Shown one piece after another: positions 20,293 to 48,028 of a DNA stretch of 64,000 nt. Made by a program: the position numbers and the translations under genes. Location: the NCBI GenBank assembly GCA_003220535.1, contig QHSU01000068.1, positions 62,001 through 126,000 of the forward strand, in the 5' to 3' direction. A model generated the notes under the pieces. The model was not told the DNA's origin. It saw only the letters and a program-made list of their open reading frames with translations, and did not search any database. Within the stretch, counting starts at the first letter, position 1. Every line of letters starts with the position of its first letter. The DNA comes from Candidatus Rokuibacteriota bacterium (GTDB lineage Bacteria; Methylomirabilota; Methylomirabilia; Rokubacteriales; CSP1-6).

Positions 20293-21027
20293 TTATCCTC
20301 CCAGGTAGTGCTGGCGCACCTCGGGGTTGTCGAGCAGCTCGCGCCCGGTACCCTCGAAGCGGTTGCGGCCGAGCTCCAGGACGAAGCCGCGGTGCGACAC
20401 GGACAGCGCCTTCTTCGCATTCTGCTCGACCATGAGGACCGTCGTGCCCTCGCGGTTGATGGCGAGCAGTGTGTCGAACACGATCTCGACCATGCGCGGG
20501 TCGAGCCCCAGAGACGGCTCGTCGACCATCAGCAGCCGGGGATGCAGCAGCAGCGCGATGGCCATTTCGAGGATCTGCTGCTGGCCCCCGGAGAGCGTGC
20601 CGGCCAGCTCGCGGCGCTTGGTCGCTAGCATCGGAAAGCGCGCGAGGAGCGCTTCGATGTCGCTGCGCACGCGGGGGTCGCGGCGCAGGTAGGCACCCAT
20701 CTCGAGATTCTCCTCGACGCTCATCGCCGCGAAGTTGCAGCGTCCCTGGGGGACGTAGCCGATGCCGCGCCGGAGCACCTCCATCGATGACCGGCTGGCG
20801 ATGTCCTCGCCGGCGAATCTGATGGCGCCCGCGCGCGGCTGCAGCATGCCGAACACGGTCCGGAGCAGCGTGGACTTGCCGGCGCCGTTGGCGCCGATGA
20901 TGCAAACGATCTCGCCGGCGCGCACGGCAAGCGACACGCCGCGCAGCACCTCGACCTCTTCGTAGCCGGCAACGACCTCGCGCAGGTCGAGGAGCGCGCC
21001 ACCGAGCGCCGAGCCGTCAGCGGCCAA
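20293..21027 (-). CDS. livF: Branched-chain-type ABC importer ATPase LivF
   Basis: The 244-residue ATPase has an intact Walker A (GANGAGKST), Q-loop (GYVPQGR), signature (LSGGQQQ), Walker B (LLMVDEPS) and the switch segment LMVEQNAKKAL characteristic of LivF. TTG at 21027 is the best start; it overlaps the end of livG by 11 bases, and the upstream residues are antisense-like. It pairs with LivG to energise the LivHM channel. It is the last gene of the minus-strand run from 29270. Confidence 0.9.
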   Translation of the reverse strand: MAADGSALGGALLDLREVVAGYEEVEVLRGVSLAVRAGEIVCIIGANGAGKSTLLRTVFGMLQPRAGAIRFAGEDIASRSSMEVLRRGIGYVPQGRCNFAAMSVEENLEMGAYLRRDPRVRSDIEALLARFPMLATKRRELAGTLSGGQQQILEMAIALLLHPRLLMVDEPSLGLDPRMVEIVFDTLLAINREGTTVLMVEQNAKKALSVSHRGFVLELGRNRFEGTGRELLDNPEVRQHYLGG

Positions 21028-21772
21028 AGTACGCCTCGATGACGCGCGAGTCCCGGCGGATCGCGTCGGGTGGGCCCTCGGCGATCTTCTGACCGTGGTC
21101 GAGCACGACAACGCGCTGGGAGATGTCCATGACCACCTCCATGTTGTGCTCGACGAGCAGCACGGTCTTGCCCTGTCGGTGCAGCGCGAGGATGTGACTC
21201 TTCATCTGATTGATCATCGTGGGATTCACCGCGGCGGCAGGCTCGTCGAGCAGGAGCAGGTCGGGATCGGGCATGAGCGCGGCGGCGAAGGCGAGGAGCT
21301 TGCGCTGCCCGTACGAGAGGCTGCCGGCGGCGGCGTCGGCCTTGTCGGTCAGGCCGACGAGCTCGAGCAGCCGGCGCGCGCGCTCGACGGCCTCGGCCTC
21401 GAGTCGCTGCAGCCGCGGGGTGCGAATCAGACGCGCGAGCAGGTGCTCCTCCTGGTGCTGTTGGAGGAAGACGAGCAGGTTCTCGAGCGCGCTGAGGCGG
21501 GGGAAGACGCTCACCTGCTGGAACGTGCGCGCAACGCCCAGGCGCGCCACGCGGTGGGGCGGAAGGGTGGTCAGGTCGTTGCCGCGGAAGAACGCTCGGC
21601 CGCCGTCCGCGGCGAGGTAGCCGGTGACGCAGTTGAAGAGCGTGGTCTTGCCCGAGCCGTTCGGGCCGATGAGGCTCACCAGCTCGCCGGGCTCGACGGC
21701 GAGATCGACCTGGTCGACGGCGGTGACGCCGAGGAAGCGCTTGACCAGCCCGCGAACCTCCAGGAGCGCCAT
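21017..21772 (-). CDS. livG: Branched-chain-type ABC importer ATPase LivG
   Basis: The 251-residue ATPase has Walker A GPNGSGKTT, the LivG-specific GVARTFQQVSVFP segment after the Q-loop, the signature LSYGQRK, Walker B LLLLDEPAAAVNP and the switch LLVEHNMEVVM. ATG 21772 shares one base with the livM stop (TGATG), so translation is coupled. It forms the ATPase pair with the downstream LivF. Confidence 0.92.
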   Translation of the reverse strand: MALLEVRGLVKRFLGVTAVDQVDLAVEPGELVSLIGPNGSGKTTLFNCVTGYLAADGGRAFFRGNDLTTLPPHRVARLGVARTFQQVSVFPRLSALENLLVFLQQHQEEHLLARLIRTPRLQRLEAEAVERARRLLELVGLTDKADAAAGSLSYGQRKLLAFAAALMPDPDLLLLDEPAAAVNPTMINQMKSHILALHRQGKTVLLVEHNMEVVMDISQRVVVLDHGQKIAEGPPDAIRRDSRVIEAYFGR

Positions 21773-22737
21773 CAGCGCGTCGCGCGCGCGCCGGTCGCCC
21801 GGCGTAGCAGGCTTTCGATCCCCTCGGGCGAGCGGACGACGACGACCAGCAGCAGGCCGCCATAGATCACGAGACGCCACGTCGGCGCCAGCCGCAGCAC
21901 CTCGGGGAGCGCGGTGAAGAGAACGGCGCCCACCAGGACGCCGCGCAGGCTGCCCACGCCGCCCAGGAAGACGATGACCAGCAAGTTCACCGTGAGAGCG
22001 ACGGTCATCTCCTCCGGGCACATGACGGAGAGGTAGTGGACGTACAGCGCGCCGACGCCGCCGGCGAGCGCGGCGCCGAGGGTGAAGGCGAGCATGCGGT
22101 ACTTGCGCGGGTCGATCCCGGCGGCGCCGGCCAGCGGCTCGTTGTCGCGCACGGCGTGAAACGCGCGCCCCAGCCGGAAGGTGGTCAGGCGCCGATAGAG
22201 CAGTACGACCGCGGCGAGCGCGGCCAGGGCGAGCCAGTAGTAGGTGGGCAGCGTCGTGACGGTGAGCGTCGGTCCGCCGGGCAGGCCGAGCATCGGTTTC
22301 GGGATGCCGGTGATGCAGAGCGGCCCGCGCGTGACCTCGACCCAGTTGTTCGCGACGATCCAGGCGACGAGCCCCAGGCCGAGCGTGCCCACGGCGAAGG
22401 CGTGCTCGGCCAGCCGGAAGAGCGGCACGCCGACGAGCGCCGCCACCAGCGCCGGCGCCAGCGCACCGGCGAGCAGGTCGGCGAGGAACGGCCACCCGGC
22501 CTGCGTGGCGAGGATCGCCGCCGCGTAAGCGCCCACGCCGAAGAAGGCGGGATGGGCGAGCGAGAGGCTGCCGACGTGGCCCACGACGAGGTCGTAGGAC
22601 AGCGCCAGCGCGGCGAAGAGCGCGGTGAAGATGAGGACGTGCAGGACGTAGCGCTGCTGGCGCGGGACCGCCGCCGCCACCAGCCAGGGTGCTGCCACGA
22701 CGAGGGCGCCGAGCGCGAGCCAGCCCGCGCGCCGCAC
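21772..22737 (-). CDS. livM: Branched-chain-type ABC importer permease LivM
   Basis: The 321-residue membrane protein has the LivM pattern: YDLVVGHVGSLSLAHPAFFGVGAYAAAIL, of which the GHxGxxSLxHxAF core is diagnostic, and the cytoplasmic loop FRLGRAFHAVRDNEPLAGA that contacts the ATPase. It starts at GTG 22737, one base after the livH stop. Confidence 0.9.
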   Translation of the reverse strand: MRRAGWLALGALVVAAPWLVAAAVPRQQRYVLHVLIFTALFAALALSYDLVVGHVGSLSLAHPAFFGVGAYAAAILATQAGWPFLADLLAGALAPALVAALVGVPLFRLAEHAFAVGTLGLGLVAWIVANNWVEVTRGPLCITGIPKPMLGLPGGPTLTVTTLPTYYWLALAALAAVVLLYRRLTTFRLGRAFHAVRDNEPLAGAAGIDPRKYRMLAFTLGAALAGGVGALYVHYLSVMCPEEMTVALTVNLLVIVFLGGVGSLRGVLVGAVLFTALPEVLRLAPTWRLVIYGGLLLVVVVRSPEGIESLLRRATGARATR

Positions 22738-22738
22738 G

Positions 22739-23587
22739 TCAGATCCCGATCCGGCGGCCGAAGAGGCCCTGCGGCCGCCAGAGGAGCACCGCGATCATGA
22801 TCAGGAAGGCGATGGCGTCCTTGTAGGCGTAGGAGACGTAGCTGCCGGCCAGCGCCTCCGTGAGACCGATCAGGAAGCTGGCGGCGATCGCACCGTTGAC
22901 GTAGCCGAAGCCGCCCGCCACCACCGCCGCGAACGCCTTGAGGGTCAGCGCGGTGCCCATGTCGGGAAAGATGTTGAAGAGCGGCGAGACGAGCGCGGCG
23001 GCGACTGCGGCCAGGGCCGCCGAGAGCGCGAAGGTCACGAGCGTCACCCGCTGGACGTCCACCCCCACCACGGCGCACGCCTCGCGGTTCTGCGACATCG
23101 CGCGCATCGCGCGGCCGGTGCGCGTGCGGGCCACGAAGCGGTGGAGACCCCAGAAGATCACCAGCGCGGCGACCAGCACGAGGAGCCGCTGCCACGCCAT
23201 GCGGAAGCCGCCCACGTCGAGGATGCGAGCGGAGAGCGCGGTCGGCACCTCCTTGGGCTGGGTGCCGAGCACGATGATGGCGAGGTTCGTCAGCACGATC
23301 GACGTGGCCAGCGTCGCGATCAGCTGCACGTGCCAGGAGCGTGACAAGATCGCGCGGATCACGGTGCGTTGGTAGGCCACCCCGAAGATCACCATGACCG
23401 CCGGCGCCAGGAGCACGGCGACGGGGTAGGGCAGGCCGAGCTCGCTGTAGCCGAACCAGAATGCGTAGGCGCCGAGCATGAAGAACTCGCCGTGGGCGAA
23501 GTTAATCAGGCGCGCCACGCCCAGCATGAGCGCCAGCCCCGCGGCCACCATGGCGTACATGGAGCCGAGGGTGAGGCCGTGCAGCAC
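22739..23587 (-). CDS. livH: Branched-chain-type ABC importer permease LivH
   Basis: The 282-residue permease shows the LivH signatures: LTLGSMYAMVAAGLALMLG, ARLINFAHGEFFMLGAY, the coupling loop TRTGRAMRAMSQNREAC and the terminal LWRPQGLFGRR. The start is GTG 23587, because the only in-frame alternative upstream is a CTG. It is 25 bases downstream of the binding-protein gene. Confidence 0.9.
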   Translation of the reverse strand: MLHGLTLGSMYAMVAAGLALMLGVARLINFAHGEFFMLGAYAFWFGYSELGLPYPVAVLLAPAVMVIFGVAYQRTVIRAILSRSWHVQLIATLATSIVLTNLAIIVLGTQPKEVPTALSARILDVGGFRMAWQRLLVLVAALVIFWGLHRFVARTRTGRAMRAMSQNREACAVVGVDVQRVTLVTFALSAALAAVAAALVSPLFNIFPDMGTALTLKAFAAVVAGGFGYVNGAIAASFLIGLTEALAGSYVSYAYKDAIAFLIMIAVLLWRPQGLFGRRIGI

Positions 23588-23612
23588 CTGCTCGAGGACG
23601 TCTGAGATCAGG

Positions 23613-24785
23613 TCAGTTCAGCAGCGCCGGGCTCGTCTGGAGCTTCTCCAGAATGCGAAGCTGGCCGTCACGCATCTCGAGCAGGATCATGTTAATCCAC
23701 GCCTGGTGGTTGTCATCGAACTTGATCGGCCCGAGCGGCGAGTCCTTGACGTCGACCTCCTTCAGCGCCGCGCGGATGGTCTGGCGATCGGCTCGGCCGT
23801 GCTTCTTCAGCGCGATCTTGATCGCGGGCACGACCGCCCACTTGAGCGTGATGGCGGACAGGCTGCCGTGGACGCGCGGAGGTATCTTGTGGCGCTCCGT
23901 CCACTTCTTGTCCCAATCCGGATCCAGGCCGACGACCCAGTAGCTGGCCTCGACGACGCCATCGCCGATCTTCGGGTTGTCGCGCACCTGGTGGAGGAAC
24001 TCGGCGGAGGCGAGGCTGCCGCGCGAGAAGATCTTCTGGCTCAGGCCCAGCTCGCGGAACTGCCGCATGAAGGGCGCGCCGTCGCTGGCCAGGATGACGG
24101 CAAGGATCGTCTCGGGGTTGGCGCGCTTGAGACGCGTGAGCACGGGCCGGTAGTCGGGCTGGCCGGGATCGAAGAACTCCGTGGAGAGGAGCCCGATGCC
24201 GGCCTTCTTGAAGGCGGCCTCGTAGGCGACGGCCGCACCGCGGCCGAAGTCGTTGTTCATCGCCAGCACCGAGGAGGTCTTCACGCCCTGGCGCGCCATG
24301 TAGCGGGCGAAGGTGTAGGCCATGATCTCGTCGTCGAGGGCGACGCGGAAGGTCCACTCGTTGCCGCCTTTGCCGCTGAGCTCGCGGATCTTCGGATGCG
24401 AGCAGGCCTCGATCACCATCGGGACGCCGATCTCCTTCACGACCGGCATGGCCCCGAGGCAGGCGCCGCTGTGGGTCTGGCCGATGATGACGTCCACCTG
24501 GTCCACATCCGCCAGCTTGCGCACCGCGCTCACCGCCTCGCCCGGCTGCGCCTTGTTGTCGGCGAAGTAGGCCTCGATCTTGTGGCCCATGATGCCGCCC
24601 TTCGCGTTGATCTCCTCGACGGCGAGCGTGGCGCCCCAGCGGACGCCCTCGCCGGTGATGGCGGCGGGGCCGCTCATCGCGGAGGCGAAGCCGATGCGGA
24701 TGGGCGGGACCTGCGCTCCGGCGGACAGCGCTCCGCCGGAGAGCGCTGCGAGCAGCAGCGTGACGAGCGCCAGTGCGAGTCGCAT
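23613..24785 (-). CDS. Branched-chain-type ABC importer substrate-binding protein (LivJ/K-like)
   Basis: The 390-residue protein has a signal peptide (LALALVTLLLAALSGGALSA) and a type I periplasmic binding fold. It begins IRIGFASAMSGPAA, then GATLAVEEINAKGGI and VDVIIGQTHSG, and later FKKAGIGLLSTEFFDPGQPDY. It captures the ligand for the LivHMGF importer encoded directly downstream. Homologues bind amino acids, amides, urea or aromatic acids, and the pocket cannot be read here. The adjacent peptidase and PLP genes favour an amino-acid-related or peptide-derived ligand. Confidence 0.9.
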   Translation of the reverse strand: MRLALALVTLLLAALSGGALSAGAQVPPIRIGFASAMSGPAAITGEGVRWGATLAVEEINAKGGIMGHKIEAYFADNKAQPGEAVSAVRKLADVDQVDVIIGQTHSGACLGAMPVVKEIGVPMVIEACSHPKIRELSGKGGNEWTFRVALDDEIMAYTFARYMARQGVKTSSVLAMNNDFGRGAAVAYEAAFKKAGIGLLSTEFFDPGQPDYRPVLTRLKRANPETILAVILASDGAPFMRQFRELGLSQKIFSRGSLASAEFLHQVRDNPKIGDGVVEASYWVVGLDPDWDKKWTERHKIPPRVHGSLSAITLKWAVVPAIKIALKKHGRADRQTIRAALKEVDVKDSPLGPIKFDDNHQAWINMILLEMRDGQLRILEKLQTSPALLN

Positions 24786-24812
24786 GCCTGCCTCCTGTTC
24801 AGCCGATGACGC

Positions 24813-25988
24813 TTATCCGATGACCATGAGCTCCTGGCTGGACCGGGTCAGCGTGCGCACCCCGGTCGGCGTCACCTCGACGGCGTCCTCGACCTGCACG
24901 CCGCCCCAGCCGTGCTCGTAATAGGGTGTTTCGACGCAGAACACCATGCCGGCCTCGAGCGCGGTGTTCGTCGTCGCGTTGATCGTCGGCGGGTCGTAGG
25001 GCTCGAGCCCGATCCCGTGGCCGACGTGGTGTCGCTGATAATGCGGCATGCCGTGCTCGCGCGTGACGCGGACGGCGAGGTCGAACACTTGGCTCACCGG
25101 CACGCCGGGCTTCATGGCGGCGATCGCGGCGCGCTCGCCGGCGAGGATGGCCGCGTAGTAGCGCGCCTGCTTGTCGGTGGGCGCGCCCAGCACGGCCGTG
25201 CGCGAGATGTCCGAGCGATAGGGGCCCCAGAGGCTGCCGAGGTCGAAGCGTACGAGGTCGCCCGGACGGAGCGCGCGGTCCGAGGGATAGACGTCGGCCA
25301 GCGCCGCGCGCTCGCCGATCGTGACCACGGTGAAGAACGGCTGGGCACCGCGCCGCAGGACTTCCTGGTCGTACACACGCGCGGCCTCGCGCTCGGTGAC
25401 GCCGGGCTTCAGCATCGCCAGCACCGCGGTGATGCCGTCCTCGGCGACGAGCGCCGCGCGCTCCAGCGCCGCCACCTCGTCCGGGCCCTTCACCATGCGC
25501 GCCTGCCGGAACATCTGATACGCGGGCACAAGCGTCGTCCCGGCCAGGCGGTCCTCGACGCGCTTCCACGTGGGCGCGAACAGGTTGCCCTCGTCGAGGC
25601 CCACGCGCCGGCCGAACACGCCGAGGTCGCCGAGCACGCCGGCCAACGCGTCGGCGGGGCTCGCGGCGGGTGCGCGCGTCCACTCGCGGATCTTCCGGCC
25701 GATCTCTCCGGGGTCGTCGGCGTACTCGAAGAAGAACTTGCCGTAGCAGGCGACGTGGTCGACCTCGATCCGATCGGCGGCCACGCCGGTCGTGTCGATG
25801 AAGGGGATGACCAGCGCGGTCCCGCGGCGCGTGAAAACGGCGTAGAGCTCGAGGCCGCGGAAGAGCGCGTGCGAGATCGAGCGGAGGCCGCTCACGTAGT
25901 AGACGTTCTCGGTCGTGGTGGCCACGAGCGCGTCGAGGCCCTCGGCCTCGAGCACGGCGCTCAGGCGCTGTCGTCGGTGTGCGTCCAT
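24813..25988 (-). CDS. M24-family peptidase (Xaa-Pro dipeptidase/creatinase-like)
   Basis: The 391-residue protein has an N-terminal creatinase domain (LVATTTENVYYVSGL) and a C-terminal pita-bread metallopeptidase domain. All five metal ligands are visible: the Asp pair in RFDLGSLWGPYRSDISRT, His in HHVGHGIGLEPYD, Glu in CVETPYY and Glu in QVEDAVEVT. It cleaves Xaa-Pro dipeptides or hydrolyses C-N bonds of creatine-like molecules. It lies 27 bases before the binding-protein gene, so it probably processes what the importer brings in. Confidence 0.88.
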   Translation of the reverse strand: MDAHRRQRLSAVLEAEGLDALVATTTENVYYVSGLRSISHALFRGLELYAVFTRRGTALVIPFIDTTGVAADRIEVDHVACYGKFFFEYADDPGEIGRKIREWTRAPAASPADALAGVLGDLGVFGRRVGLDEGNLFAPTWKRVEDRLAGTTLVPAYQMFRQARMVKGPDEVAALERAALVAEDGITAVLAMLKPGVTEREAARVYDQEVLRRGAQPFFTVVTIGERAALADVYPSDRALRPGDLVRFDLGSLWGPYRSDISRTAVLGAPTDKQARYYAAILAGERAAIAAMKPGVPVSQVFDLAVRVTREHGMPHYQRHHVGHGIGLEPYDPPTINATTNTALEAGMVFCVETPYYEHGWGGVQVEDAVEVTPTGVRTLTRSSQELMVIG

Positions 25989-26006
25989 GCTCTCACCTGA
26001 AGAGTC

Positions 26007-27017
26007 TCACCTGAAGTTGGGGATGACCTCGCGCCCGAAGAGGTCGATCGCCTCCTGCATCTCGGGCACGGTGTTCGCTACAAAGAGCAGGCCCGAGAGC
26101 GTGGTGACCCCCGCCTGCTGATAGACGCGGATCCGCTCGCAGACCTCCGCCGGGCTGCCGATGAGGTTGCGCTGCTCGAAGCCGCCCGTCTGCTCGCGCA
26201 GCGTGGAGCGCTTCAGCGACTCCAGGTGCTTGTAGAGCTGCGAGGCGTGGAAGCGCTTCACGGCCTCCTCGTGCGTACGGCCGATCGAGCAGGCGAACTG
26301 CGGCGCGATGTCGATCGCGGCGCCGTCGCGCCCGGCCTTGGCCGCCGCGCGGTGGACGTCCTCCACGCCCCGCGCGATCTCCTCCGGCGAGAGCACCGCC
26401 GGCATCCAGCCCTCGCCGTACTCGCCGGCGCGGCGCCGCACCTCGGGGTGGTTGCCTCCCGCGTACATCGGCAGCGGCGCCTGGCGCGGCTTGGGGAAGC
26501 ACTCCACGTCCTGAAAGCGCACGTGCTTGCCCCGAAACGTCGCCTTGCGCTCGGTGAAGAGCAGGCGCAGCGCGCGCATGCCCTCGTCAACGATCTCGCC
26601 CCGCCGCGCGTCGCGGGCGTCGGGGTGCAGGGCCTCGTACTCCTCGCGGTAGGCGCCGGTGCCCACGCCGAGGATCACGCGACCGCCGGAGAGCTGATCG
26701 AGCGTCGCCACCTGCTTGGCCAGGACGGGCATGGTGCGCATCGGCAGCACGATGATGCCAGTGGCCAGGCGGATCCGCTCGGTGCGCGCGGCCACATAGG
26801 TGAACGTGATGAGCGGCTCGTAGAAGTTCGGCGGCTCGGGCCACTCGCGCTGCACGTAGCGCTGGGTGGTCATGTGGTCGTTGCCCCACACGGAGTCGAA
26901 GCCGACGCGCTCGGCCAGGAGTGCGGTGGGCAGGATGTCCTGAGGCTTCGCGAACGGCACCGGGTACATCATGCCCTCGATGCAGGTCGGGATGTGGACG
27001 CCGAACCTCAGCGGCAT
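26007..27017 (-). CDS. LLM-class F420/FMN-dependent oxidoreductase (1)
   Basis: The 336-residue luciferase-like protein begins LRFGVHIPTC, with ALLAERVGFDSVWGNDH, VAARTERIRLATGIIVLPMRTMPVLAKQVATLDQLSGGR and GVGTGAYREEYEAL. This is the standard LLM barrel with its cofactor phosphate-binding loops. ATG 27017 follows GGAAGGAG and overlaps the end of the second LLM gene by ten bases. LLM enzymes oxygenate or reduce substrates with FMN or F420; the sequence does not say which cofactor is used. Two tandem LLM genes in one operon suggest sequential or paired steps. Confidence 0.88.
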   Translation of the reverse strand: MPLRFGVHIPTCIEGMMYPVPFAKPQDILPTALLAERVGFDSVWGNDHMTTQRYVQREWPEPPNFYEPLITFTYVAARTERIRLATGIIVLPMRTMPVLAKQVATLDQLSGGRVILGVGTGAYREEYEALHPDARDARRGEIVDEGMRALRLLFTERKATFRGKHVRFQDVECFPKPRQAPLPMYAGGNHPEVRRRAGEYGEGWMPAVLSPEEIARGVEDVHRAAAKAGRDGAAIDIAPQFACSIGRTHEEAVKRFHASQLYKHLESLKRSTLREQTGGFEQRNLIGSPAEVCERIRVYQQAGVTTLSGLLFVANTVPEMQEAIDLFGREVIPNFR

Positions 27018-28015
27018 CGCATCTCCTTCCAGGCGGGCGCGAGCTCGCGGCCCAGGTGCTCGAGCTGGCGCGCGAGGTCGGCCCTCTCGGGCACCACAGC
27101 GATCGCGGCATCGAGGCCGGCCTCCACCCAGCGGGCGAGGGCGGCGCGGCAGTCGGCCGGCGTCCCGGCGGCGGCGAAGGTGTCCACCAGGTCGTCGGTG
27201 ACGAGATCGGCGGCCGCGCGGCGGGCCATGAGCGCGTCGCGAAAGGGCTGCGTGCGCGCCGGCTCGAGCCCGGCGTCCGCGAGGATGGACTGGCCGTGGA
27301 GCACGCCGAGATAGTGTGCGATGAGCGGTCGCACCGAGGCGCGCGCCTGAGCGCGGTCGTCGGAGACGGCCACGAGCACGTAGGCGATGACGACGAAGTC
27401 GGCGCGAGACCGCGACGCCGTGGTGGCGCGGACTCGTCGCGCGTGAGCCGGCGAGGCGAGGACGGAGCAATGTACGCCGTCCGCCACCTCGGCGGCGAGC
27501 GCGAGCGCGCGCGGGCCCTTGACGCCGAGTAGGATGGGCACCGGCGCCCGCGGCGCGGCCTCGAGCGCCACGTCGTTCACGGCGAAGACCTCGCCCGTAT
27601 AAGTCACGCGCTGGCCGTCGAGCAGCCGGCGCACGATCTCGACGCCCTCACGCAAGCCACGCAGCGGCGTCTTGAACGGAATCGCCATCTGCTCCTCGAT
27701 CCACTTCCGGTTGCTGCTGCCCATCCCGAGGACGACGCGGCCCGGGGCGATTCCCGCCAGCGCCGCGGTCTCCATGGCGACGAGCGCCGGATGGCGCGTG
27801 TAGGGATTGACCACGCCTAGGCCGATCACGACGCGCTCGGTAACCGCGGCGGCCGCGGCGGCGATCGCGTACGCGCCGGGATCGAAGTAGTCCTCGATGA
27901 CCCAGAGGCTTCCGAGTCCCGCGCGCTCAGCGGCGCGCGCCAGGTCGGTGGCGCGGACGGGGAGGCCGCGCCCCCTGAGCGCGACGCCGAGGCTATCGGT
28001 CCAGCGCCAGTCCAT
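27008..28015 (-). CDS. LLM-class F420/FMN-dependent oxidoreductase (2)
   Basis: The 335-residue protein is a second LLM enzyme: DLARAAERAGLGSLWVIEDYFDPGAYA, ERVVIGLGVVNPYTRHPALVAMETAAL, LGMGSSNRKWIEEQM. This block resembles methylene-tetrahydromethanopterin reductase (Mer)-like F420 enzymes. ATG 28015 lies within the last codons of the threonine-synthase-like gene (23-base overlap). It is clearly different in sequence from the neighbouring LLM gene, so the two are not a recent duplication. Confidence 0.88.
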   Translation of the reverse strand: MDWRWTDSLGVALRGRGLPVRATDLARAAERAGLGSLWVIEDYFDPGAYAIAAAAAAVTERVVIGLGVVNPYTRHPALVAMETAALAGIAPGRVVLGMGSSNRKWIEEQMAIPFKTPLRGLREGVEIVRRLLDGQRVTYTGEVFAVNDVALEAAPRAPVPILLGVKGPRALALAAEVADGVHCSVLASPAHARRVRATTASRSRADFVVIAYVLVAVSDDRAQARASVRPLIAHYLGVLHGQSILADAGLEPARTQPFRDALMARRAAADLVTDDLVDTFAAAGTPADCRAALARWVEAGLDAAIAVVPERADLARQLEHLGRELAPAWKEMRCR

Positions 28016-29270
28016 AGGCCTCGCGCAGGACGGTGAGGAGACGATCGAAGTCGCCATCGGCGGCCGGCACCGGCGGCAGCCACGCGCGGCTGGCGCCCGG
28101 GTCCTTGAGCCCTCCGGACGTTAGGATGAGGACGATCGTCTGCTCCGCGTCGAGCGCGCCGCGCCCCGCGAGCTGCATGACGGCCGTCAGCGACGCTGCC
28201 GACGAGGGCTCGACGTACAAACCCTCTTCGCGCGCCAACGCGCGCTGCGCCTCCAGCACGCCCTCGTCCGTCAGTCGCACGCCGGCACCGCCGGACTCGC
28301 GCAGCGCGGCGAGTCCCTGCCAAGTGCCGTAGCGCGAGGCGATGGAGAAGGCGACGGACGGCGCCGGCGCCTCGACCGGCTCGGGCGCTTGCAGCCCTCG
28401 CTCCAGCGCATCGGCGAGGGGACCGAACGGCTCGGCGGCGATCATGCGCGGCGCGTGCTTCACGAGGCCGAGCGTCCGCAGCTCCGTCCATCCCTTCCAG
28501 ATCCCGTACAGCCCGTCGCTGTACGCGCTCGGCACGACGACGACGTCCGGCGCCGTCCAGCCGAGATCCTCGGCGACCTCGTAGGCGATCGTCTTGTAGC
28601 CCTCGACGCCCCAGGGATTGGATCCGCTGGGCGGCGTGACGAAGCCGCTCGTCGGATACCAGCCGAAGCGCTCGACGCCCTCGCGCATGAGGTCCCAGCG
28701 CGACTCCGACGTGGGGCAGGCGACGACGGCCGCGCCGTACGCCTGCATCAGCGTCTTCATCGTCTCGGGGACCGAGGCGAGGGTGAAGATGACGCACGGC
28801 AGCCCGGCGCGCGCGGCATAGGCCGCCGTGGAGGCGCCGTGATTGCCCGTGGACGAGATGGTGATCACGCGCGCGCCGGTCTCGACGGCGTGGGTGACCG
28901 CCATCGCGCACAGCCGATCCTTGTACGACCACGTCGGATTCTGGCTCTCGTCCTTCGCGTAGAGCCGCGGCAGTCCGAGCCGCCGGCCGAGGCGCTCGAG
29001 GGGGACGAGCGGCGTGGCGCCCTCGCCGAGCGAGATCGGATGTGCCGGCCGCGCCGGGAGCAGGTGGCGGAAGCGCCAAAGCCCACGCGCTGCGGTGCCG
29101 AATGTCTCGGGCGTCGCGCCGGCGAGCGGTACCAGATCGTATTCGACGGTGAGATTCACGGCGACGCCCTGCGCGCGACAGCGCGGGCAGCCCGCGAACA
29201 TTCGTGGCTCCTCGAAGCGGGCGTGGCAGCGGAGGCAGAGGAGTCCGAGGACGTGCGCCTCCGGGGCCAT
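27993..29270 (-). CDS. Threonine synthase-like PLP enzyme
   Basis: The 425-residue protein has an N-terminal zinc-ribbon-like segment (CLRCHARF ... CPRCRAQG) and a fold type II PLP domain. The PLP lysine is Lys117 in NPTWSYKDR, with SSTGNHGAS as the phosphate or substrate loop. This is the threonine synthase layout, but the gene is first in a catabolic transport operon away from other threonine genes, so a different beta-elimination or replacement reaction is possible. ATG 29270 is chosen over a TTG at 29309. No clear ribosome binding site precedes it. Confidence 0.82.
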   Translation of the reverse strand: MAPEAHVLGLLCLRCHARFEEPRMFAGCPRCRAQGVAVNLTVEYDLVPLAGATPETFGTAARGLWRFRHLLPARPAHPISLGEGATPLVPLERLGRRLGLPRLYAKDESQNPTWSYKDRLCAMAVTHAVETGARVITISSTGNHGASTAAYAARAGLPCVIFTLASVPETMKTLMQAYGAAVVACPTSESRWDLMREGVERFGWYPTSGFVTPPSGSNPWGVEGYKTIAYEVAEDLGWTAPDVVVVPSAYSDGLYGIWKGWTELRTLGLVKHAPRMIAAEPFGPLADALERGLQAPEPVEAPAPSVAFSIASRYGTWQGLAALRESGGAGVRLTDEGVLEAQRALAREEGLYVEPSSAASLTAVMQLAGRGALDAEQTIVLILTSGGLKDPGASRAWLPPVPAADGDFDRLLTVLREAYGLALDR

Positions 29271-29422
29271 GGCAGGCGCTAGTGTAGGAACGGCCCCCCA
29301 TCCTGTCAAACCGCGACGCCTCGAGCGCGAGCGGGGTCCTGTGTCGCGCGGACCCCGTCGGCACGAGCGCCCGACGACGGCGGTGATCCCGACCCAGCAG
29401 CTCCTCGAGCCGAGACGCGCTC

Positions 29423-45443: not shown

Positions 45444-45686
45444 TTGACTGATCTCTGCGTCGGCGACATCGTGATCCGGAGTCATCATCTGCTCAACACT
45501 CGTGGGACCGTCGTGCGGGTCGCGGTGCAGCACCGGGGAAGGGCCCGGCAGGTGTGGGTCAAGTGGAGTCACCCCAACACCCTTCCCAACCCGAGCCTCG
45601 AGAGCGTGGACGGCCTCGAGGCGGTCAAGGATCGTGCCAGCGACAGCGTGAGCGAGGGCCGAACTCGGAGTCCCGTCGCGCGTTGA
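45444..45686 (+). CDS. Small hypothetical protein with KOW/SH3-like sequence
   Basis: The 80-residue frame starts at TTG 45444 behind GGAGG. The N-terminal part VGDIVIRSHHLLNTRGTVVR, then GRARQVWVKWSHPN, looks like a small SH3-like barrel of the kind found in KOW or CarD-type proteins. The rest is charged. The assignment is tentative and there is no functional context beyond the desaturase operon upstream. Confidence 0.5.
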   Translation: MTDLCVGDIVIRSHHLLNTRGTVVRVAVQHRGRARQVWVKWSHPNTLPNPSLESVDGLEAVKDRASDSVSEGRTRSPVAR

Positions 45687-45718
45687 CACCGCGCAGTTGG
45701 CTCCTCTAACCTCGCGCC

Positions 45719-48028
45719 ATGGAGCCGGCTTCCGCGCAGTGCCGGGCCGAGGTCGCGCGGCTCCGTGAGGCTGTCGCCGATCTCGAGCGTCAGCTAGAAG
45801 CTGCCCGCGCGCGCGCCCGGGAGCTGGCGCGGGTCGCTCATCTCGTCAACGAGACCCTCGACCTGACCACCGTGAGCGAACGGATCGCCGATGGCGTGCT
45901 CGGCCTGCTGGGGGTCCACAGCTCGGCCATTCGCCTCCTCCAGCCTGACGGCGCGCTCAAGGCGATCGCGCTCGGAGGTCGGGCCAAGGAATACGCGGGA
46001 AGCCGCGACGTCGTGCCCAGCGGGGTCGGCCTCATCGGGCGCGCGGCCGTCGAGGGGCACCCGATGTGGACCGCGGACATCCGGACCGACGCGCGATTCG
46101 AGCTCAATCCGGAGATTTGCGATCGCAACGCCGAGGTCGGGATCGTCGCCGGTCTCGCCGTGCCCCTGCGCGTCGCGGGGACGGTGATCGGCGTCGTGTC
46201 GGTCGGAAGTCCCACGCCCCGCGCCTTCACCGATCCGGAGATCGCGCTCCTCCAGACCTTCGCCGACCAGGCCGCTGTCGCGATCAACAACGCCCAGGCC
46301 CAGGAGGCGCTGGCCAAGCAGGCTGAGCGCCTGAGGATCCTGCACGAGATCGATCGGGGGCTGATCGCCGAACAGTCACCCGACGCGATTGCAGCGGCCG
46401 CGCTCCGACCGCTTCGAGAACTGCTCGGGGTCCCGCGCGCCATCGTGAACCTGTTCGACCTGGCGGCGGGCGAGGTCGAGTGGCTGGCCGCGGCGGGCCG
46501 ACACCGGATCCGCGTCGGGCCGGGTGTCCGCTACTCGCTGCAGCTGATGGGCGACGTGGAGGCGCTCAAGCGCGGCGAGATGCAGGTGATCGATGTCGAG
46601 GCGCTGCCGCCGAGCCCCGAGGCCCAGGCGCTGCTCGCGTCCGGCGTGCACGTGTACATGGTGGTGCCGATGATCGCCGGCGGCGAGCTCATCGGCGCCC
46701 TCAGCTTCGGCGGCGCCCCCGGGCCGTTCCCGGCCGAGCAGGTGAGCATCGCGCAGGAGGCGGCGGCGCAGCTGGCGATCGCGATCGCGCAGGCCCGGCT
46801 CCACGAGCGCGTCAAGCGACAGGCCCAGGAGCTCGAGCACCGCGTGGAAGAGCGCACGCGCGAGCTGAGCGCGGCGACCGCCGAGGCCGACCGCGCCAAC
46901 CAGGCCAAGAGCGAGTTCCTGTCGCGCATGAGCCACGAGCTGCGCACACCCCTGAACGCGATCCTGGGCTTCGCGCAGCTGCTGGAGATAGACGCGGCGT
47001 CGCCGGAGCAGCAGGAGAGCGTCGATCAGATTCTTCGCGCGGGCCGGCACCTCTTGGGCCTCATCAACGAGATTCTCGACATCAGCCGGATCGAGGCCGG
47101 CCGGCTCCAGCTCTCCGTCGAGCCGGTCCCCGTCCGAGAAACGGTCCGGCAGGCGATCGAGCTGGTCCAGCCGTCGGCGGCCGAGCCACACGTGTCGGTG
47201 CGGGCCGAGGTGATCGACGAGAACCTGCACGTGCTGGCCGATCGACAGCGCCTGCAGCAAGTGCTCCTGAACCTCCTCTCGAACAGCATCAAGTACAACC
47301 GACCGGGCGGCACCGTGACCGTCTCGTGCGAGGCGGGCGCCGAGGGCCGTCTGCGCATCCACGTGACCGACACCGGCGACGGCATCGCGGCCGACAAGCT
47401 GCAGCGGCTCTTCACCCCCTTCGACCGCCTGGGCGCCGAAGCCAGCGCGGTCGAGGGCACCGGGCTCGGGCTCGCGCTCTCCAAGACGCTGGTCGAGGCG
47501 ATGGGGGGCACGCTGCGAGTCCAGAGCCGGCCGGGGACGGGCAGCACCTTCTCCGTGGAGTTGGCGGTCGCGTCGGCGCCCGGCGTCGCGGATGTCGTCA
47601 CGCCGGCGGCGATCGAGCCGACGGCGGACGATGGCACGGGAAGGGCGCCGCGAAAGATCCTCTACATCGAGGACAATCTCTCGAACCTTCGCCTCGTCCA
47701 GAGCGTCCTCGCGCGGCGGGCCGCCACCACTGTGCTCTCGGCGATGCAGGGCCGGGTCGGTATCGCTCTCGCGCGAGACCATCGACCGGATCTCATCCTG
47801 CTCGACCGTCACCTGCCCGACATGTCCGGCGATGAAGTATTCCGGCTGCTTCGCGACGATCCGCGCACGCGGGACATCCCCGTCATCGTGCTCAGCGCCG
47901 ACGCGATCCCGGCGCGGATGCAGCGGCTCCTCGAGGCCGGCGTGCGAGCGTATCTGACGAAGCCCCTGGACGTCCCGAGCCTGCTGGCGGCGGTGGACGA
48001 GAGTTTCCGACGAGAAGGGGCGCCTTGA
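45719..48028 (+). CDS. Hybrid sensor histidine kinase: GAF-GAF-HisKA-HATPase-REC
   Basis: The 769-residue protein starts with a short coiled coil, then two GAF domains (about 40-190 and 205-365). A dimerisation helix with phospho-acceptor His406 in MSHELRTPLNAILG follows, then the ATPase with NLLSNSIKYNRPGG, DTGDGIA and GTGLGLALSK. A C-terminal receiver follows, with Asp696 in LLDRHLPDMSG and the conserved Lys in LTKPLD. No transmembrane helix is present, so it senses a cytosolic signal, perhaps a small ligand or redox state through GAF. No separate response regulator is adjacent. It is followed by the S1 gene after 32 bases. Confidence 0.93.
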   Translation: MEPASAQCRAEVARLREAVADLERQLEAARARARELARVAHLVNETLDLTTVSERIADGVLGLLGVHSSAIRLLQPDGALKAIALGGRAKEYAGSRDVVPSGVGLIGRAAVEGHPMWTADIRTDARFELNPEICDRNAEVGIVAGLAVPLRVAGTVIGVVSVGSPTPRAFTDPEIALLQTFADQAAVAINNAQAQEALAKQAERLRILHEIDRGLIAEQSPDAIAAAALRPLRELLGVPRAIVNLFDLAAGEVEWLAAAGRHRIRVGPGVRYSLQLMGDVEALKRGEMQVIDVEALPPSPEAQALLASGVHVYMVVPMIAGGELIGALSFGGAPGPFPAEQVSIAQEAAAQLAIAIAQARLHERVKRQAQELEHRVEERTRELSAATAEADRANQAKSEFLSRMSHELRTPLNAILGFAQLLEIDAASPEQQESVDQILRAGRHLLGLINEILDISRIEAGRLQLSVEPVPVRETVRQAIELVQPSAAEPHVSVRAEVIDENLHVLADRQRLQQVLLNLLSNSIKYNRPGGTVTVSCEAGAEGRLRIHVTDTGDGIAADKLQRLFTPFDRLGAEASAVEGTGLGLALSKTLVEAMGGTLRVQSRPGTGSTFSVELAVASAPGVADVVTPAAIEPTADDGTGRAPRKILYIEDNLSNLRLVQSVLARRAATTVLSAMQGRVGIALARDHRPDLILLDRHLPDMSGDEVFRLLRDDPRTRDIPVIVLSADAIPARMQRLLEAGVRAYLTKPLDVPSLLAAVDESFRREGAP

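Follow-up and report, generated by a model that had tools for sequence, protein, structure and literature searches.

A conserved four-enzyme core with a variable importer in Rokubacteria and Actinobacteria: a candidate module for the breakdown of nitrogen compounds

A 64,000-nucleotide stretch of contig QHSU01000068.1 (positions 62,001 to 126,000, assembly GCA_003220535.1, Candidatus Rokuibacteriota), here called the window, carries on its minus strand a run of nine genes. These encode a threonine-synthase-like enzyme (TSL) dependent on pyridoxal phosphate (PLP), two luciferase-like (LLM) oxidoreductases, a hydrolase of peptidase family M24 and a Liv-type importer. The question raised by this locus is what such enzymes do together. 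Comparison with related loci reveals that TSL, LLM1, LLM2 and M24 form a core and that the importer is its variable part. The recurrence of this core in Rokubacteria, in Actinobacteria and, in part, in a Firmicute suggests an undescribed pathway for the breakdown of a nitrogen compound, and the run is a real, conserved and apparently undescribed module, putatively catabolic, made of known enzyme families. No paper describing the gene set was found in searches limited to an open-access library, in agreement with the preliminary description of the window, which knew of no such pathway.

The core and its importers

Related loci and genomes are designated by numbers (L and G), the host genome being G000. 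The Rokubacterial comparison comprised 18 loci, the window included, of which L038, L039 and L078 were set aside because a contig edge lies inside or just after TSL. LLM1, LLM2 and M24 were present within about 5.5 kb of TSL, measured centre to centre, in all 15 assessable loci. The LLM pair is divergent in L074, and the core is more distant in L075 and L076 (48% and 45% identity for TSL, 34% and 40% for M24; in L076 also 35% for LLM1 and 46% for LLM2). Among 394 actinomycete genomes, with up to four candidates scored per genome, ten contained a TSL match at E <= 1e-100. Nine of them have the other three core enzymes within 2.5 kb of TSL; in the tenth (L065), M24 is the only one of the three. 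Cellulomonas triticagri is one of the culturable actinomycetes that carry the core. Seven of these loci (L059-L064 and L066) are close relatives and are therefore not independent. The full core is present in 10 of the 14 actinobacterial loci examined; M24 occurs without LLM in L065, L084 and L046 (5.5 kb away), and L079 has neither. The gene order is TSL-LLM1-LLM2-M24 in Rokubacteria as against LLM2-M24-TSL-LLM1 in actinomycetes. Of three loci from Firmicutes, one, in Oscillibacter (L040), has three of the four enzymes, ordered LLM2-M24-TSL, and a search of 391 genomes of its class returned Oscillibacter alone. TSL matched 27 plasmid records at E <= 1e-50, LLM2 had no plasmid match at E <= 1e-60, and a core-type LLM was found in none of the 11 proteobacterial loci read. 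The synteny survey thus bears out the conservation of the gene set that had been proposed.

At E <= 1e-10 the host genome contains 112 matches to the LLM family (PF00296), a very large number for one genome, and only five to M24. Because M24 is scarce and the four enzymes are linked across phyla in a changed order, their association is more than chance. TSL was found in 17 of the 60 genomes of the order, the host's own included, 16 of them at 68-100% identity and one (G030) at 48%; the 45% homologue of G059 (L018, identical to L077), which keeps an arginine discussed below, was left out of this count. None of the eight other genomes of the host's genus had TSL in the order search, so the operon is accessory or patchily inherited. 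Among the relatives with 89-95% identity, those that carry a name are metagenome assemblies of Candidatus Rokuibacteriota. Contamination of the host assembly stands at 8.15%, and the contig of the window may for that reason be a binning error.

The importer had been counted as a member of the set, which did not hold up: it lies outside the conserved core. Liv genes are near the core in 8 of the 15 assessable Rokubacterial loci, where L034 shows only the substrate-binding protein (SBP) before its contig ends and L035, which ends inside M24, was not judged. The importer of the window is complete by family (HAAT), with an SBP, two permeases and two ATPases; substrate-specific models scored below cut-off, and the ligand of the SBP is not readable from the sequence. 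Other importers accompany the core enzymes elsewhere. TRAP subunits lie beside TSL in Oscillibacter, SBP_bac_5 or Opp-type permeases occur in L044, L067, L068, L071 and L074 (6-9 kb from M24 in L068 and L071), and a TTT system is present in L075 and, by record annotation, in L080 and L081. An NCS1 permease directly precedes LLM2 in L059, with six more loci of the same actinobacterial lineage assigned by clustering, and a sugar-type ABC importer was seen in L065 by eye.

Gene layout and promoter-like box

The features of the run are as follows, all on the minus strand and in the order of transcription.

29281..29309, minus strand: promoter-like box TTGACA-N17-TACACT, sigma-70-like, ending 10 nt 5' of the TSL ATG
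27993..29270, minus strand: TSL, threonine-synthase-like PLP enzyme of fold type II; 425 amino acids, N-terminal CxxC pairs, PALP (Pfam)
27008..28015, minus strand: LLM1, luciferase-like oxidoreductase nearest to F420-dependent Mer; 335 amino acids, Bac_luciferase (Pfam)
26007..27017, minus strand: LLM2, oxidoreductase of TIGR03619, a family named F420-dependent LLM; 336 amino acids, Bac_luciferase (Pfam)
24813..25988, minus strand: M24 hydrolase; 391 amino acids, Peptidase_M24 with Creatinase_N (Pfam)
23613..24785, minus strand: Liv-type periplasmic SBP; 390 amino acids, Peripla_BP_6 (Pfam)
22739..23587, minus strand: LivH-type permease, BPD_transp_2 (Pfam)
21772..22737, minus strand: LivM-type permease, BPD_transp_2 (Pfam)
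21017..21772, minus strand: LivG-type ATPase, ABC_tran (Pfam)
20293..~21027, minus strand: LivF-type ATPase with an uncertain start codon, ABC_tran (Pfam)

The nine open reading frames, which span 29270 to 20293, are packed as described earlier: four of the junctions are overlaps, the other four leave 1-27 nt between genes, and all families were confirmed with Pfam. TSL and LLM1 overlap by 23 nt and LLM1 and LLM2 by 10 nt; gaps of 18, 27, 25 and 1 nt follow at LLM2/M24, M24/SBP, SBP/LivH and LivH/LivM, and the last two junctions are overlaps of 1 nt (LivM/LivG) and about 11 nt (LivG/LivF, given the uncertain LivF start). This packing and the one promoter-like box just 5' of the first gene support the single transcription unit proposed for the run, and the nine genes are likely to share one transcript. 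A second, weaker promoter-like box lies inside the SBP gene. The only terminator-like match in the operon is inside LivH, fewer than the mean of 2.0 in shuffled sequences.

A TTGACA/TANACT-type box is also situated 8-10 nt 5' of the ATG in L031, L032, L033, L069 and L073, where the flanking bases differ. A search did not find it in L047 (the same as L068) and L072, and none was seen by eye in L036 and L070. Across the genome, the pattern TTGACA-N16..18-TANACT-N6..11-ATG gave three matches, versus none for its reversed control. Because the box is kept amid differing flanks and the pattern is this rare, transcription likely starts almost at the TSL ATG, giving a near-leaderless message. A second TTGACA/TA-box lies directly 5' of an ATG at 45683-45721 of the window (plus strand), where an open reading frame of 769 amino acids starts at 45719. 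Two matches to the box-ATG pattern in the window, compared with none in 100 shuffles, hint at leaderless promoters in this lineage.

Residues and probable cofactors of the core enzymes

By sequence and fold, TSL is nearest to threonine synthases (ThrC, TIGR00260; 1uim), with which it shares the fold and the PLP lysine motif KDR. Its scores stay below the cut-offs of all 25 NCBIfam models shown, among them TIGR00260 (148.2 versus 167.1 bits) and NF006050 (255.7 versus 303 bits). The AlphaFold model has a mean pLDDT of 88.8, and most of its superpositions on threonine synthases have a high root mean square deviation; for TSL and M24 alike, the models bear out the fold and leave the active site unconfirmed. 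The signature residues differ from those of threonine synthase. The position of Arg-160 of Thermus thermophilus 1uim is glycine in every row of a 29-row alignment, which contains the window but neither the partial L034 and L035 nor L077, where the arginine is kept. We take this arginine to be the substrate-phosphate-binding site of threonine synthase; a literature search on that site returned nothing useful. Where threonine synthase has the GNAGN loop, these rows read tyrosine (28 rows) or valine (one row), any residue and then aspartate (29 rows), and the glycine of LTGHG is replaced by serine (27) or alanine (2). The arginine is kept in 12 of the 13 other homologues of the order, and the exception, L030, adjoins an M24 of the kind found in the core. 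In 13 plasmid rows the position is glycine in 12 and alanine in one, and the loop tyrosine is arginine in three. The family named in the preliminary description stands (PALP and fold), but the enzyme lacks a conserved residue of threonine synthase. A role in threonine biosynthesis was rejected on these residues. On a quick tree with long branches, which serves only as a sketch, the window groups with 11 Rokubacterial core rows with a support of 100, and the presence of LLM together with the core-kind M24 is clustered (6 changes versus a shuffled mean of 18.8).

M24 shares the fold and the five metal ligands of Xaa-Pro dipeptidase (PepQ, 1wy2), and prolidases are its nearest relatives by sequence and the best fold matches of its AlphaFold model (mean pLDDT 83.4). 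Its PepQ score, 151.5 bits, falls well short of the cut-off of 630. The histidine of the VHE motif of PepQ is replaced by tyrosine (Tyr-331 in the window) in 28 of 30 aligned rows, among them the window and the neighbour of L030, with the partial L035 left out; the two rows without tyrosine, L041 and the upstream M24 of L033, are distant homologues. The metal ligands D, D, H, E and E are intact in the window and kept in 29 rows, the exception being L041, whose M24 is a homologue of 24% identity that lies about 9 kb away from TSL. The 11 proteobacterial loci divide into four that have the tyrosine form (L080, L081, L089, L091), four with a second M24 subtype carrying threonine at this position (L083, L086, L087, L088) and three in which no M24 was recognised (L082, L085, L090). 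Among nine plasmid M24 rows, five have tyrosine and four threonine. The rhizobial enzymes had been considered DoeA-like, which was rejected in favour of the second subtype since they score 57-61, or 48, versus 575 bits, no better than for PepQ. Relatives of M24 also occur on plasmids of Shinella (L094) and Aminobacter (L095), annotated beside a PLP enzyme of the class-V aminotransferase fold and an ABC importer. On a plasmid of Paraburkholderia sabiae (L093), one run holds an M24 relative, a PLP enzyme whose best models are threonine synthases (below cut-off) and a tyramine oxidase subunit B family protein of ornithine-cyclodeaminase type (above cut-off).

These residues bear on the simplest alternative, in which the operon would scavenge Xaa-Pro or other dipeptides, with M24 as a prolidase, TSL as threonine synthase or threonine deaminase and the LLMs as passengers. 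The nearest relatives of both enzymes and the Opp-type genes near some cores are what such a system would show. The substitution of the VHE histidine speaks against a plain prolidase and weakens the proline-containing ligand suggested earlier, the phosphate-site arginine is gone in all TSL rows, and the LLM pair is linked to the core across phyla. We consider dipeptide scavenging unlikely.

The two LLMs resemble F420-dependent enzymes of hydride transfer more closely than oxygenases. LLM2 exceeds the cut-off of TIGR03619 (213 versus 166.9 bits), and the best model for LLM1 is Mer, below its cut-off (168.6 versus 276 bits). The redox step proposed earlier is retained; the flavin-dependent oxidation it was equated with gives way to F420-dependent hydride transfer as the more likely chemistry. 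CofD was above cut-off in 21 of 25 genomes, comprising 19 of the 21 with core LLM genes (the exceptions being G030 and Oscillibacter, G061) and two of the four without. CofH was found in 11 of the 25 and had no match in the ten TSL-bearing actinomycetes or in G063; the reason is perhaps a fused FbiC, which these genomes may carry instead. In Oscillibacter sp. PC13, the roughly 4 kb upstream of LLM2 (L040:3673-5936) encode an ECF S component, a protein of the nitroreductase family and an F420 glutamate ligase of CofE type that exceeds its NCBIfam cut-off. Their position near LLM2, in a genome where CofD and CofH were not matched, suggests that Oscillibacter salvages F420 or a precursor. F420 biosynthesis genes have been reported in Rokubacteria, and according to a 2021 review the role of F420 in bacteria outside Actinobacteria had not yet been the subject of any experimental study (PMC8498797).

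Candidate pathways and known systems

We infer that the run is an accessory operon for the catabolism of a small compound that contains nitrogen, probably a derivative of an amino acid, either N-substituted or cyclic (amide or amidine), and judge the chances of this reading to be evenly balanced. The Liv system would import the compound, and one or both LLM enzymes would shuttle hydride between it and F420. M24 would hydrolyse a C-N bond and free an amino acid, from which TSL could eliminate a beta- or gamma-substituent other than phosphate by PLP chemistry; the resulting enamine would collapse to a 2-oxo acid and ammonia. As a scheme, the logic of import, C-N hydrolysis, redox and PLP-dependent elimination outlined in the preliminary description is supported.

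Catabolic-type neighbours, namely NCS1, PucR, IclR, xanthine-dehydrogenase-type and RidA genes, speak for this reading. RidA-family genes are found in the same run as TSL in Oscillibacter (L040) and just before TSL in a Lachnospiraceae locus (L045), and would fit an enamine product. AceE-type 2-oxo-acid dehydrogenase E1 homologues near TSL, below cut-off in L084 and L085 and by annotation in L086, would fit a 2-oxo acid such as 2-oxobutyrate. Neither clue comes from a Rokubacterial locus. A PucR-type regulator is divergent from the NCS1 gene in L059 and occurs, by clustering, in six of the seven loci of that lineage and in L044, L065 and L067. The seven loci also share an amidohydrolase, which may be unrelated to the core because it lies beyond another gene and on the other strand. 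In L068, xanthine-dehydrogenase-type subunits and an IclR-type regulator are neighbours. In L075 (1-12568), xanthine-dehydrogenase-type genes (the FAD subunit confirmed with Pfam), a TctA permease, a distant M24-LLM set and a close LLM1-LLM2-Liv set adjoin. On rhizobial plasmids (L080, L081, L082, L085, L090), genes annotated as kinase and cysteine synthase family are near TSL, the latter matching SbnA best in L085, below its cut-off; L082, L085 and L090 also have annotated LuxR and acyl-homoserine-lactone synthase genes there.

Several observations weigh against this pathway. The genes that point to a 2-oxo acid belong to Rhodococcus and proteobacterial loci that have no LLMs, and they lie 2-7 kb away from TSL, in L085 on the opposite strand; a literature search on Rhodococcus JS3073 yielded nothing useful. 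An M24 of the core kind is not near TSL in L041, L045, L079, L082, L085 and L090, and its active-site loop in the window (residues 322-334) is poorly modelled (pLDDT < 50). L077 is 42-45% identical to TSL and keeps the arginine, so identity alone cannot define the family. LLM1 is under every F420 cut-off shown, CofD is weak support because these phyla would be expected to have F420 genes in any case, Oscillibacter has LLM2 without CofD or CofH matches, and G030 is without CofD.

A reductive route for an N-heterocycle, as in urate breakdown, is improbable to much the same degree as dipeptide scavenging. Here F420H2-dependent LLMs would dearomatise the ring, hydrolases would open it and TSL would take the role of YgeX. 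The NCS1 permease and PucR-type regulator of one actinobacterial lineage and the xanthine-dehydrogenase-type neighbours in L068 and L075 are in line with it, as are reported SsnA loci of Chloroflexota in which a putative F420 luciferase-family reductase replaces YgfK/UacX (PMC12507026). Against it, SsnA is under cut-off in 24 of the 25 genomes, and the exception, in Oscillibacter, is on another contig. Neither the operon nor its near flanks contain a gene recognised as xanthine-dehydrogenase-type, and the amidohydrolase of the actinobacterial lineage is separated from the core as described above.

In a hydroxyectoine-like route, TSL would dehydrate like EutB, an LLM would reduce like EutC and M24 would open the ring like EutD or DoeA. 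The EutB-EutC-EutD logic has been proposed (PMC5924519), EutD is among the structures matched by the M24 model (19% identity, TM about 0.8), and TSL relatives on rhizobial plasmids are near an M24, a deacetylase (in L086 the best model is DoeB, 288 versus 402.7 bits) and an annotated EhuB. The M24 of the window is far under the DoeA models (73 versus 575 and 54.9 versus 613 bits), the rhizobial enzymes are low for DoeA too, and the core has no deacetylase; EutA and EutC were not sought. This route is very unlikely.

An arginase-family protein is encoded between a Liv-type importer and TSL in a Lachnospiraceae locus (L041:8977-9972) with no core-type M24 nearby. Use of creatine or another guanidino compound, with M24 acting like creatinase, could draw on this gene and on creatinases among the M24 fold matches and is only remotely probable, since the sequence match is weak (39.7 bits) and the five prolidase-type metal ligands are intact whereas creatinase has a metal-free active site, which speaks against creatinase itself and weakens the creatine-like ligand suggested earlier.

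A bolder form of the breakdown pathway, which we hold to be rather unlikely, is that Rokubacteria, Actinobacteria and, with salvaged F420, Oscillibacter share a new F420-dependent route that reduces and opens a common N-heterocycle or a cyclic amidine resembling a nucleobase or hydroxyectoine. Two enzyme subfamilies not described before would be involved: a threonine-synthase-like lyase that does not depend on phosphate and an M24 hydrolase in which tyrosine replaces histidine. The four-enzyme core with its swapped importers offers concrete enzymes with which to study F420 outside Actinobacteria. The findings also suggest that genes annotated as threonine synthase and Xaa-Pro peptidase, a recurring pair found for example on rhizobial plasmids, may do neither job.

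The breakdown pathway preferred here is best read as a possible analogue of hydroxyectoine or reductive urate catabolism. In PMC5924519, hydroxyectoine use is proposed to run through EutA-EutB-EutC-EutD, so that a PLP enzyme of threonine-dehydratase type is paired with EutD, a hydrolase. The ectoine systems (EutABCDE, DoeAB) and the present operon have in common an M24-family hydrolase, a PLP fold-II enzyme and an importer; the operon differs in an M24 that is not DoeA by score, in LLMs in the place of EutC and in a core without DoeB. Reductive urate degradation (XdhD, YgfK, SsnA, HyuA, YgeY, YgeX), as described in PMC12507026, combines dearomatisation by a redox step with hydrolases and the PLP lyase YgeX; for a Chloroflexota variant, a putative dehydrogenase of the F420 luciferase family is reported. 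The redox step, hydrolase and PLP lyase recur here, whereas the core has no adjacent SsnA, M24 stands for M20 and TSL for YgeX. A plain urate cluster was rejected, as SsnA is not beside the core; the host genome has only sub-cut-off SsnA matches, none of them on the contig of the window (C116). With a low DoeA score and no adjacent SsnA, the operon fails the tests of both systems, but it would work like them.

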